The notes beneath the pieces are model-generated. The model made no database searches and had not been told where the DNA came from. It saw only the letters and a list, made by a program, of their open reading frames with translations. The translations under genes and the position numbers were made by a program. From an uncultured Gilliamella sp. (lineage in GTDB: Bacteria > Pseudomonadota > Gammaproteobacteria > Enterobacterales > Orbaceae), in contig CAMLMY010000018.1 of the NCBI GenBank assembly GCA_946481345.1, positions 1-40,262 of the forward strand: DNA of 40,262 nucleotides, written 5' to 3'. Positions 600 to 4,610 of this stretch are shown in pieces; position 1 is the stretch's first letter, and every line of letters starts with the position of its first letter.

Positions 600-1304
600 A
601 TGAAAAAGTTATTATTATCGACGTTTATTATGATCAATTTGTTGACGGGTTGTAGTTCTGATTCTGATTATAATGAGGTTGAAACTTATAACGATAAAGA
701 TGTGTTATATAAAAAAGCAGCTGTATTACAGGATGCTGCAGCGCAATTTGCTTTAGGTGCCAATTACTATTTTGGGCAAAATGGTTATACCCAAGATTAT
801 AGTCAAGCTAAAAAATGGTTTGAAGCGTCAGCCAAGCAAGGATATACGACATCTCAATATAATCTAGGTCTTATGTATAATAAAGGAGAAGGCGTAAAAC
901 CTGATTATAAAAAAGCAATAATGTATTATGAACAAGCCGCTCAGGCTAACTTTGTGAGAGCGCAAAATAATTTAGGTTTAATATATTATGAAGGTAAAGT
1001 GGTTCCACAAGATTTAGATAAAGCGAAATTCTGGTTTGAAAAAGCTGCTAATCAAGGTCATCTAAAATCTCAAGTAGCGTTAGCAACTATATATCTGTCA
1101 AATAAAAAAAACTACCCTAAAGGATTAGAGCTACTTAAACAAGGGCTAAAAGCCAATAATCCTGAAGCACAATTATTAATGGGCGTATTGTATTATAATG
1201 GAATAGCAGTATCACAAGATATTAATGAAGCCAAAAAGTATTATGACTTGGCTTGCAAAAATGGATTACAAAAAGGGTGTGAACTCTCCAAAAATATTCA
1301 ATAA
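600..1304 (+). CDS. Sel1-repeat lipoprotein
   Basis: The 234-residue product starts with a lipoprotein signal peptide ending in the lipobox LTGC (Cys18), so the mature protein should be membrane-anchored in the envelope. The rest is about five Sel1-like (TPR-type) repeats of about 36 residues. They show the alternating signatures AQxxLGxxYxxG and AKxWFEKAAxQG, from residue 47 to the C-terminus. Sel1 proteins serve as protein-interaction scaffolds; the partner cannot be read from sequence. A good Shine-Dalgarno (AGGA, about 6 bases upstream) supports the start. A second Sel1 gene follows 182 bases downstream on the same strand, suggesting tandem paralogues. Whether it binds murein enzymes, signalling proteins or a host factor is open. 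Confidence 0.88.
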   Translation: MKKLLLSTFIMINLLTGCSSDSDYNEVETYNDKDVLYKKAAVLQDAAAQFALGANYYFGQNGYTQDYSQAKKWFEASAKQGYTTSQYNLGLMYNKGEGVKPDYKKAIMYYEQAAQANFVRAQNNLGLIYYEGKVVPQDLDKAKFWFEKAANQGHLKSQVALATIYLSNKKNYPKGLELLKQGLKANNPEAQLLMGVLYYNGIAVSQDINEAKKYYDLACKNGLQKGCELSKNIQ

Positions 1305-1465
1305 CACCAAATTAATTAAAAATCTTTCAATTTTTAATGGCTAGATGTTTAAGTGTAATTAAATGAGATTTCCATTATATTTATATTATTTATGATATTT
1401 TAACCTAATATATGGCAATATACACAAAACAGGTAATCCAAAGCATGCCAACGAATGATTTACTG

Positions 1466-1485
1466 TAGGATGAAGTAGGATGAAG
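1466..1485 (+). promoter_or_regulatory. Duplicated ribosome binding site
   Basis: The 10-mer TAGGATGAAG occurs twice in direct tandem, immediately before T-ATG at 1487. Each copy holds an AGGA core. The proximal one (1477-1480) has ideal 6-base spacing to the ATG; the distal one is 10 bases further away. This settles the start of the second Sel1 gene and looks like a recent small duplication. Confidence 0.6.
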
Positions 1486-1486
1486 T

Positions 1487-2095
1487 ATGATTAAGTTCTT
1501 TACTAAAATGATATTAGGTTTATGTTTCAGTATTTCTGTCAGTGCTAATTCACAAATATTATTTGATTTTAACCAAGAATATCAGAAAGCGACTGAACAA
1601 AACAATGCTGAAGCTCAGTTTCATTTAGGTATTATGTATGCCAATGGTACGCATACTAAAAAGCGTCATTTTAAGGGTATTGAAAAACAATTTGAGCAAC
1701 CCGATGAATCTCAACCAGATTATACTAAAGCTAAAGAGTGGTTCGAAAAAGCAGCCAATCAAGGTCATATTGAAGCACAACATCAACTTGCTTTACTTTA
1801 TTATAATGGTCAAGGGACTAAACAAAATTATTCACAAGGAATTAAGTGGGATACCAAAGCGGCAAAAAAAGGTAATGTGATAGCCCAATATACTTTAGCG
1901 AATCTTTATTATAAAGGTACAGGCGTAAAACAAGACTATTTTAAAGCAAAACAATGGTTTGCTAAAGCAGCTGAACAAAACTACTCTGATTCCAAAGAAC
2001 AATTGGCCATTGTATCGAAAAAAGTATCAGCGATTGTTGCTAAGCAACAAGCAGCTAAAAAACAAAAAAGTAATTATGATTGTGGTTGTGATTAA
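1487..2095 (+). CDS. Secreted Sel1-repeat protein
   Basis: The 202-residue protein has a Sec signal peptide (residues 1 to about 20, ending near SVSANS) and no lipobox, so it is probably periplasmic or secreted, unlike its lipidated neighbour. About four Sel1 repeats follow. The first is interrupted by an insertion of roughly 20 residues (around residues 58-78) rich in Lys, Gln and Asp. The later repeats are canonical (AKEWFEKAANQG, YYNGQGTKQNYSQ). The C-terminus is a Lys/Gln/Ala-rich helix ending in a Cys-X-Cys tail (YDCGCD), which could bind metal or form a disulphide. It is probably a divergent paralogue of the gene upstream. The molecular partner is unknown. Confidence 0.85.
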   Translation: MIKFFTKMILGLCFSISVSANSQILFDFNQEYQKATEQNNAEAQFHLGIMYANGTHTKKRHFKGIEKQFEQPDESQPDYTKAKEWFEKAANQGHIEAQHQLALLYYNGQGTKQNYSQGIKWDTKAAKKGNVIAQYTLANLYYKGTGVKQDYFKAKQWFAKAAEQNYSDSKEQLAIVSKKVSAIVAKQQAAKKQKSNYDCGCD

Positions 2096-2428: not shown

Positions 2429-4390
2429 TTAATGCGTTAATCCATAACCTAATGGATATAAAGATTTCATGTCATTTGGTAAATCAGTAGCTTGTTGAAG
2501 TACACTTTCCATTGAATCAGGTAAAGCAAACGGCATTTTAGCGCTATACGGTTTATCCGCAAACAAACGTTCAAACAACACTTCATCATTTACACCAAAA
2601 TTAGCCACAATAGCGCTAGCATATTGTTTTATCGGTGTAAGAACGGCTGGTCGATCTAAATAAACTGTTACAATAACAGGACGCTTTTTACTTGCCTTGG
2701 CGATAAATTTAATATTTTTATCTTTTTCAGGAAACGCAAGTGAACCTTCATGATGTCTTAAACCAAAAAAGTAATTTTTATGATTTTGCTCAAAAGGTGC
2801 ATCAATACGTGCAACCACCACATCAGCATCATCAATATCATCAACAATAGTCACTTTATTTTTTAATTGATTTTTTGCCTCCGCCATAAAACCATGTAAG
2901 TAGACTTTTTTATTAGTGTCTAGTGGTAAAGTTTGTTGTTCATTTTCAAGCAATACCATTGAGTTAAATTGTGCCTTATTTGCAATTTGTTGGAATTGTT
3001 GATTACCCACAAATTTGCTTGCTTCAGTTGGATCATTATAAGGTGTTTCAAATTGGCCTAAGGCAAATTTTTGCGTCAAAATTGCCAATACTGCACTGTC
3101 TATTAGTTTCTCATCTAGTTTTTTATTTTTAACTGCCGAGACAATAGTTGAACTGTCGCTTACGCCTCCAAATTGTTGAACACCCGCTAGGATAGCTTTA
3201 ATAAAACGCTCTTCTACTGTTAGATCCTCAACCCCCCAAGGCATTCCTTCTGCTTTAGGTGCAACACCTTGAGGTGATCCATTAATGCATACTTCATTGC
3301 AATCTTTAGTAATATTCCAATCACTCATGATGACACCTTTAAATTTATAGGTATCACGTAGTAAATCTTTCAATAAATAATTATTAAAACCTGCACCAAC
3401 AGGATCGATTTTATGATTATTTATTTGAGCATTTTTCAATATGGAATATGTCGGCATTATAGCGGCCACATTCACCTCAAAAGCACCAGTAAATGGAATA
3501 ATATGCTGTTTCAAACTATCATTTTGTGTAAATAAAGCATATTTGCCATAAAAACTATGGCTATCAAGCCCTTCTTCGGCAGCACCATACCCCACCCAAT
3601 GCTTAACAACGGCAGAAACGCTTTGTGAATTTAATCCATTTTTACCATTTTGCATACCTGATATATAACCACGCACCATCTTTTTACTTAATTCAGGGTT
3701 TTCGCCAAAGGTACCCTCAAAACGAGCCCAACGTGGTTCAGTACCTAAATCGGCCATCGGTGATAATGCTTGAGTTACTCCCAAAGATCGATATTCTTGT
3801 CGAATTATATCGCCATATTCATTAATATCTTTTTCACTGCCAATTGCAGCCATTCCTAATGTACCCGGCCATTGGCTAAAACCACTTTTACTGGTCACTT
3901 CATTACCATAATAGAATGTATTTCGAGGATCGACACTGATAGTTAAAGGAATAGAGAGGCGTGATAGTTCAGCAATTTTTTGCAACTGATTATTTTGTTG
4001 TGCAAAATCTTCTGGGCTGACTTCTAAACGAGTGATTAAACTATTTACTTTATCATTTAATACTAGATCCTTGATCTCTTCTAAATTATATTTATCACCA
4101 TGACCAAGTTCATCATTTAAACTTCGAGCATTGCCATGCATCATCATGCCTGCTTTTTCTTCAAGCGTCATTCTAGCAAGTAGATCTTTTGCGCGCTGAG
4201 CCGGTGTTAAACGCCAATCTTCATAAGGCGTTAGTTTGCCATCTTTATTCATATCTTTAAATTTAAGATTATCAACGGTAATGATTTTTAATTCTTGGCT
4301 TTCAATTTTAACCTGCTCAATTGCCCATAATGTGTTGGATACAAGTGCAGCGCTAATCAACAATGCTAGCTTTATGGATTTACATTTCAT
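2429..4390 (-). CDS. Secreted glycoside hydrolase family 3 (beta-glucosidase-like)
   Basis: The 653-residue protein has a Sec signal peptide (cleavage after about residue 23, LWA). A canonical 12-position EF-hand-like loop follows at D46-E57 (DMNKDGKLTPYE), a probable calcium site seen in some members of this GH3 branch. The GH3 (beta/alpha)8 domain starts near DLLARMTLEEKAG and carries KHW (263-265). The retaining nucleophile lies in VIMSDW, with Asp357 the predicted catalytic residue. The second alpha/beta sandwich domain follows (VLLENEQQTLPL onward). The C-terminal fibronectin-III-like domain of E. coli BglX (765 aa) is absent. Predicted role: periplasmic or extracellular cleavage of beta-glycosides; the sugar specificity cannot be read from sequence. 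AAGGAG lies 7 bases before the ATG. The leader carries CRP, promoter and RAT/terminator elements, implying inducible, catabolite-controlled expression. Confidence 0.92.
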   Translation of the reverse strand: MKCKSIKLALLISAALVSNTLWAIEQVKIESQELKIITVDNLKFKDMNKDGKLTPYEDWRLTPAQRAKDLLARMTLEEKAGMMMHGNARSLNDELGHGDKYNLEEIKDLVLNDKVNSLITRLEVSPEDFAQQNNQLQKIAELSRLSIPLTISVDPRNTFYYGNEVTSKSGFSQWPGTLGMAAIGSEKDINEYGDIIRQEYRSLGVTQALSPMADLGTEPRWARFEGTFGENPELSKKMVRGYISGMQNGKNGLNSQSVSAVVKHWVGYGAAEEGLDSHSFYGKYALFTQNDSLKQHIIPFTGAFEVNVAAIMPTYSILKNAQINNHKIDPVGAGFNNYLLKDLLRDTYKFKGVIMSDWNITKDCNEVCINGSPQGVAPKAEGMPWGVEDLTVEERFIKAILAGVQQFGGVSDSSTIVSAVKNKKLDEKLIDSAVLAILTQKFALGQFETPYNDPTEASKFVGNQQFQQIANKAQFNSMVLLENEQQTLPLDTNKKVYLHGFMAEAKNQLKNKVTIVDDIDDADVVVARIDAPFEQNHKNYFFGLRHHEGSLAFPEKDKNIKFIAKASKKRPVIVTVYLDRPAVLTPIKQYASAIVANFGVNDEVLFERLFADKPYSAKMPFALPDSMESVLQQATDLPNDMKSLYPLGYGLTH

Positions 4391-4449
4391 ATTATACTCC
4401 TTGAATAACTTATTATATTTAAGCTAATTTTTGTGCGCTTAAAACAACA

Positions 4450-4488
4450 AAAACCTAAGCACTTTGCTAACCAAAGTGCTTAGGTTTT
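4450..4488 (-). terminator. Conditional terminator in the GH3 leader
   Basis: A perfect 17-bp stem (arms 4450-4466 and 4472-4488, 5-base loop) is followed on the minus strand by TTGTTGTTTT, so it reads as an intrinsic terminator about 50 bases before the GH3 start codon. Its 5' arm begins AAAACC, and these six bases (4488-4483) are also the 3' end of the RAT element. Forming the RAT would therefore block the terminator. That overlap is the hallmark of BglG/LicT/SacY antitermination. Confidence 0.82.
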
Positions 4489-4523
4489 GCCTGCATACTT
4501 GTTAAGTTTTACAGTAACAATCC
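4483..4523 (-). promoter_or_regulatory. RAT (ribonucleic antiterminator) for a BglG/LicT-type protein
   Basis: On the minus strand the 5' half is GGATTGTTACTG (4523-4512) and the 3' half is GCAGGCAAAACC (4494-4483). Both match the E. coli bgl RAT halves base for base, as I recall that sequence. The usual apical loop of about 4-5 bases is replaced by 17 bases (4511-4495). These can form a small extra ACTT/AAGT hairpin. A PTS-controlled antiterminator protein would bind here and let transcription pass into the GH3 gene. No such protein is encoded in this window, so it must act from elsewhere. Confidence 0.82.
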
Positions 4524-4550
4524 AAAATTATGCTCAATAAATTAGCATTA

Positions 4551-4556
4551 ATCATA
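4551..4556 (-). promoter_or_regulatory. Probable -10 of the GH3 promoter
   Basis: TATGAT on the minus strand, with a poor -35 (TTTAAT, 4579-4574, 17-base spacer). The implied transcription start is near 4544. That puts the CRP site about 59 bases upstream (class I-like geometry) and the RAT about 20 bases into the transcript. The geometry is consistent; the exact start is inferred. Confidence 0.45.
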
Positions 4557-4594
4557 GAAATAAGAAATCAACAATTAAAACTAAATGATACAAT

Positions 4595-4610
4595 TGTGAT
4601 AATAATCACA
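4595..4610. promoter_or_regulatory. CRP (cAMP receptor protein) binding site
   Basis: TGTGATAATAATCACA is a perfect TGTGA-N6-TCACA palindrome, the consensus CRP half-sites with the correct spacing. It sits upstream of the GH3 leader and about 190 bases beyond the stop of the exporter gene, so GH3 is the only sensible target. It implies carbon catabolite control. Confidence 0.78.

Follow-up and report, generated by a model that had tools for sequence, protein, structure and literature searches.

What controls an exported glycoside hydrolase that has no PTS gene beside it? The question is raised by a GH3 gene (2429-4390, minus strand) of an uncultured Gilliamella sp., which lies in a 40,262-nt stretch of DNA, here called the window. 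A first-pass annotation had read a bgl/sac/lic-type antitermination switch in the leader of this gene and had placed its regulator elsewhere in the genome. As it had stated, GH3 has no PTS neighbor and the window holds no antiterminator gene: among its 38 ORFs of 100 aa or more, Pfam detects neither PTS nor antiterminator domains. We find that the proposed mechanism is probably right, with support from the architecture of RAT, terminator and CRP site and from an antiterminator, LicT, encoded together with its own PTS operon on another contig.

The GH3 enzyme and its leader

The gene encodes a protein of 653 aa with Pfam GH3 N and C domains. By eye, its N-terminus is signal-peptide-like (MKCKSIKLALLISAALVSNTLWA-IEQ), a feature that we presume to direct export, and Asp357 of the SDW motif (in MSDWN) is a candidate for what we take to be the catalytic nucleophile. 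The best phmmer match in the PDB is 9ul7, a 'beta-glucosidase' (E 5.3e-101). We name no substrate because the best NCBIfam matches lie far below their cut-offs. Judged from these features, the protein is probably a periplasmic glucosidase. It had been annotated as secreted and as acting on extracellular glycans; this is better read as exported, most likely to the periplasm, as the cell is Gram-negative. Two Sel1-repeat proteins adjoin GH3 (600-2095, plus strand), and the related genome G018 has one upstream, placed between LysE-like sequence and GH3. Amygdalin is reported to be broken down by one Gilliamella strain, in an article whose abstract names no enzyme for it (PMC9897726).

Read along the minus strand, the sequence before GH3 contains, in order, a CRP palindrome, a RAT, a terminator, AAGGAG and the ATG. 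Both RAT halves predicted by the annotation were recovered exactly, GGATTGTTACTG at 4523-4512 and GCAGGCAAAACC at 4494-4483, giving a RAT at 4483-4523 with 17 nt between halves that show zero mismatches to the consensus. The joint pattern is unique in the window (no hit in 100 shuffles) and likewise in the 2.2-Mb assembly, where the reversed control pattern gives no match. The 17-bp intrinsic terminator was located at 4450-4488 (minus strand) by scanning and folding. It consists of 17 pairs, a 5-nt loop and a T-rich tail, and no second terminator-like site was detected between 3900 and 5500 (0.6 on average in shuffles). Folding of the leader gives -30.7 kcal/mol with a z of -4.7, and none of the shuffles reaches that low. 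The six bases AAAACC (4483-4488) end the RAT and begin the terminator, so the overlap between the two stands as annotated. An Rfam scan of the window returned two tRNA matches only, none of them at the leader.

The CRP-type palindrome TGTGATTATTATCACA (4595-4610, minus strand) was likewise borne out, agreeing at 10/10 positions with the consensus. The promoter that had been claimed was not recovered: a consensus scan of the region gives 5 sites on both strands compared with a shuffle average of 8.8, and none on the minus strand between CRP site and RAT. A candidate -10 element that the scan missed, TATGAT at 4551-4556 (minus strand), was picked out by eye. It is a plausible guess and would place the start of transcription around 4541-4545, some 60 nt away from the center of the CRP site. 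The ribosome-binding site AAGGAG was read from the sequence at 4397-4402 (minus strand).

RATs are usually short, about 29-30 nt, whereas that of the window measures 41 nt and those kept before GH3 in Gilliamella 41-55 nt. A RAT of 43 nt precedes the bgl genes on contig C8 of the same genome. In a family-wide pattern search other RATs of this class are 28-39 nt long, the gap between the window's halves, on which the annotation did not comment, exceeds that of the non-GH3 RATs, and the GH3 RATs of genome G198 and of Vibrio have 28 and 29 nt. This departure from the usual length is not treated as disqualifying because the conserved half-sites are unaffected. An extended upper stem can form in the gap. 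Its strength varies by species, with -11.6 kcal/mol in G026 and a weak -0.8 kcal/mol in the window, where 24% of shuffles are as low. Folded in isolation, the window RAT is predicted to form a stem with internal loops and a z of only -0.8; the lower stem is invariant across orthologs and thus uninformative. With its ordered half-sites, the overlapping terminator and a BglG-family gene in the genome, the leader fits, at the level of sequence, the BglG/LicT-type class of RAT antitermination.

Conservation of the leader in Gilliamella

Of the 44 family genomes searched, 35 belong to the genus of the window. GH3 matches with E <= 1e-30 were found in 19 of the 44. They comprise 15 full-length Gilliamella orthologs (76-100% identity, window included), one broken remnant and three partial matches of 34-36% identity from another genus. 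The remnant (L023, genome G009) and the partial matches (L024-L026) were excluded from ortholog counts and tree. In G009 the C-terminal 146 residues are matched and stops are present, and the genome retains LicT.

RAT and terminator are kept in 14 of the 15 full-length genes. A first scan detected the RAT in 13, one with a single mismatch, and G016, which has a longer loop, was added on reading its leader. The RAT of G007 carries one substitution in its 5' half, and a few others differ at the base of the upper stem. Only in G032 (L012) has the RAT decayed; a terminator-like hairpin, the CRP site and a close LicT remain, so that GH3 of this strain may be permanently off or under some other control. 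Mean pairwise identity was calculated over 13 leaders, leaving out the near-copies G015 and G036 and including the decayed G032. It amounts to 0.95 and 0.89 for the RAT halves and 0.83 for the CRP site, compared with 0.58 for the stretch between CRP site and RAT and 0.45 for the loop. Each of the 14 ortholog leaders examined (of the 15, G036 was omitted as almost identical to G000) has a CRP site that agrees at 9 or 10 of the 10 positions and is centered 68.5-79.5 nt before the RAT.

Paired changes support the upper stem of the RAT. Across the seven distinct 41-nt RATs (longer ones were left out), 91% of cells are paired compared with at most 49% when partners are slid, and the covariation score is reached by 0/500 shuffles. 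Five pairs have changes on both sides, a count that taken alone is matched by 114/500 shuffles. The terminator stem is kept across eight distinct ortholog sequences with three pairs changed on both sides, matched by 52/500 shuffles.

Antiterminators of the genome and competing readings

The genome search for BglG-family genes that the first-pass annotation had proposed returned three antiterminator genes, on contigs C8, C3 and C33 of an assembly that is 75% complete. The outcome that it had named as refuting, a genome lacking any such protein, is thus not what we observe. The C8 protein (C8 5667-6506) is LicT by NCBIfam, with 388.9 bits and a cut-off of 300; the C3 and C33 proteins score just below this cut-off with 294.0 and 296.5 bits. 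C8 LicT contains His100, His159, His207 and His269, which we take to be the four phosphorylatable PRD histidines, as well as Asn10, Gly26 and Arg27 in the CAT domain, whose roles we likewise presume. Its PRD part aligns to the LicT chains 1tlv and 1h99 and its CAT domain plus first PRD to 6twr. In sequence, the protein fits LicT with a CAT domain, two PRDs and four histidines.

The C8 licT gene is followed by genes for a beta-glucoside EIIBCA and for a 6-phospho-beta-glucosidase. The interval that separates licT from the EII gene contains another RAT with its terminator, GGATTGTCATTG...GCAAGCAAAACC, whose upper stem is long as well. This RAT is of the GGATTG...AAAACC class, whereas the operon leaders on C3 and C33 belong to another, GGCATG...AGGACC. 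Since the C8 leader shares its class with GH3 and the C3 and C33 leaders differ, the GH3 RAT matches LicT's own class. The CAT domains differ as well, with GKG in the C3 and C33 proteins and GRG in LicT. The GGCATG...AGGACC class is located at L006:4763-4793 (+) and L007:4734-4762 (+), before two beta-glucoside-type PTS operons besides the one on C8, in which the antiterminator gene comes last and the CAT domain has GKG, not GRG; the two classes form a natural specificity pair.

Every one of the 15 GH3 genomes encodes a LicT that shares 83-100% identity with the C8 protein. LicT of at least 81% identity is also found in 28/35 Gilliamella genomes, so its presence in every GH3 genome is by itself weak evidence. 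More telling, LicT is the only PF03123 match in six (G005, G007, G008, G013, G022, G026) of the 14 genomes that keep the GH3 RAT.

The mechanism of such switches has been described for LicT (PMC7430163) and BglG (PMC9499468): without inducer, EII keeps the antiterminator phosphorylated and inactive, and with inducer it is released, dimerizes and holds the RAT, blocking the terminator. In E. coli bgl, a CRP-activated promoter is combined with antiterminator sites over terminators (PMC9499468). We infer, with a probability of about 0.83, that GH3 is preceded by an antitermination switch of the BglG/LicT family on which LicT acts in trans. CRP-cAMP would drive transcription of the leader, which without inducer would halt at the terminator at 4450-4488. 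Flow of beta-glucosides through the C8 EIIBCA would free LicT from EII phosphorylation, allowing it to dimerize and clamp the RAT. With AAAACC common to both structures, a clamped RAT would keep the terminator from forming, and the exported GH3 would be transcribed. By acting in trans on the unlinked GH3 gene and, in relatives, also on genes for porins, LicT would co-induce entry, periplasmic trimming, PTS uptake and phospho-beta-glucosidase.

The same RAT could be genuine and yet be read by the C3 or C33 antiterminator, in which case the inducer would differ. With three BglG-family genes in one genome, cross-talk between antiterminators is possible. We consider this unlikely, as the leaders of the C3 and C33 operons are of the other class, their CAT domains have GKG where LicT has GRG, and neither protein has a counterpart among the PF03123 matches of the six genomes in which LicT alone accompanies a kept GH3 RAT. 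The remaining readings dispense with an antiterminator altogether. A terminator together with a CRP site would suffice for catabolite-controlled low expression, so that the leader could be a plain attenuator with constitutive, partial termination under CRP control. Such an arrangement gives no reason for RAT halves that overlap the terminator in 14/15 orthologs, nor for the same RAT before PTS and porin genes, and we give it only a very slight chance.

The hairpin may also belong to the gene upstream, which is of the LysE family, as its terminator, leaving the RAT as a functionless relic. LysE-like sequence indeed lies upstream in 15/15 orthologs (for G017 and G018 it appears only where the retrieved stretch ends), and the RAT of one ortholog has decayed. 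That the RAT halves are far better conserved than the remaining leader argues against a relic, as does a CRP site that separates the RAT from the LysE-family gene. Moreover, the Sel1-repeat gene of G018 intervenes on the opposite strand (the G017 frame is near-identical), yet RAT and terminator stay before GH3. We therefore regard a LysE terminator as very unlikely and retain antitermination by LicT as the preferred reading.

A predicted LicT regulon and its precedents

The class-1 pattern, to which the GH3 RAT belongs, has 54 matches in 33 of the 44 family genomes, and its reversed control has 0. Thirty of these were read, one for each of 30 genomes, and their targets named by eye: 10 precede GH3, 9 a LamB-type porin, 8 an OprD-type porin and 3 an EII gene. 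When three porin examples were submitted to Pfam, LamB was matched; OprD was matched in one and nothing in another. The recurrence of this RAT ahead of both porin types and of the bgl PTS gene suggests a dispersed LicT regulon. The bgl locus of the window genome itself ends in an OprD-type porin gene (Pfam OprD match) with a degenerate RAT-like leader (GGACGATACTGCTTTTGCAGACAAAGCC, L005:1040-1300, minus strand), where several relatives are exact; decay or altered specificity are possible explanations. No relative of the LamB-type porin was found in the window's genome (75% complete; search without a positive control). G033 (67% complete) has a RAT, and no BglG-family match was found there.

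Outside Gilliamella, 16 GH3 loci were scanned (L031, L093-L107). Two of them, on the Vibrio tritonius plasmid pMA35 and in G198 (GH3 identity 47-50%), carry an exact RAT and a terminator-like hairpin before GH3. No RAT was detected in the other 14, nine of which are from one genus. We attribute to chance two weaker RAT-like hits, one with 3 mismatches in L025, among the partial GH3 matches of the family, and one with 2 on the opposite strand of L107. A single BglG-family gene is present in G198, where it adjoins a PTS EIIB/EIIC gene. Of 327 plasmid records with a GH3 match, two (H1, H3) were retrieved. On the GH3 protein tree, which has 31 rows, no fewer than three changes are required for the RAT label. 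The simplest account has two gains, in Gilliamella and in Vibrio with G198, plus the loss in G032. Under a single origin the number of losses rises; the deep forks of the tree are weak and its branches long. In L106, a Pantoea agglomerans plasmid, a carbohydrate porin gene directly follows the GH3 homolog, with no RAT in the fetched stretch; the link between GH3 and porin thus recurs in cis.

The surprise that the annotation expressed at an exported enzyme as target was overstated, as antitermination control of exported enzymes is already known from SacY-sacB and from LicT-bglS, and the E. coli bgl and Erwinia arb loci offer related precedents. B. subtilis LicT controls bglS (licS), an exported lichenase, as an unlinked second target besides bglPH. 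As predicted here, a beta-glucoside PTS operon is thereby joined to an unlinked exported glycoside hydrolase. The Gilliamella system differs in its Gram-negative host, a GH3 instead of a lichenase, the CRP-type site, the extended RAT loop and the porins in the predicted regulon. The RAT overlaps a terminator in B. subtilis too.

B. subtilis SacY similarly works through RATs on two targets, sacB, which encodes the exported levansucrase, and the sacXY sensor operon (PMC12502629); the word 'exoenzyme' stands in a title cited by PMC6148471. SacY, however, belongs to sucrose and to a Gram-positive host. The BglG/ArbG systems resemble the predicted Gilliamella system in a CRP-activated promoter and in antiterminator sites over terminators (E. 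coli, PMC9499468). E. coli bgl includes a porin gene, and for the Erwinia arb locus a porin and an exoenzyme of the glycosyl hydrolase type are listed, each as putative (PMC2646131). Their genes are assembled in one locus, whereas the Gilliamella GH3 stands apart as a unit with a RAT of its own, as do the porins of relatives. The new element is a dispersed regulon in a bee symbiont that LicT is predicted to control in trans, its GH3 RATs measuring 41-55 nt. Among the papers searched, none pairs the words Gilliamella and antiterminator in these exact spellings.

More tentatively, a single LicT sensing PTS flux may open separate RATs on porins, exported GH3 and PTS operon as a 'virtual utilization locus', with the length of the upper stem at each target setting the order or strength of induction, and the pairing of GH3 and RAT may have been assembled more than once in gammaproteobacteria. 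The upper stem is long for Gilliamella GH3 and short in Vibrio and G198. Such long upper-stem RATs are natural variants for studying how antiterminators tolerate or use these stems. The LicT regulon of porins, GH3 and PTS outlined here was predicted from RNA sites alone. If it holds true, the intake of plant beta-glucosides would be tied to periplasmic glycoside cleavage in a bee gut symbiont through one regulator.
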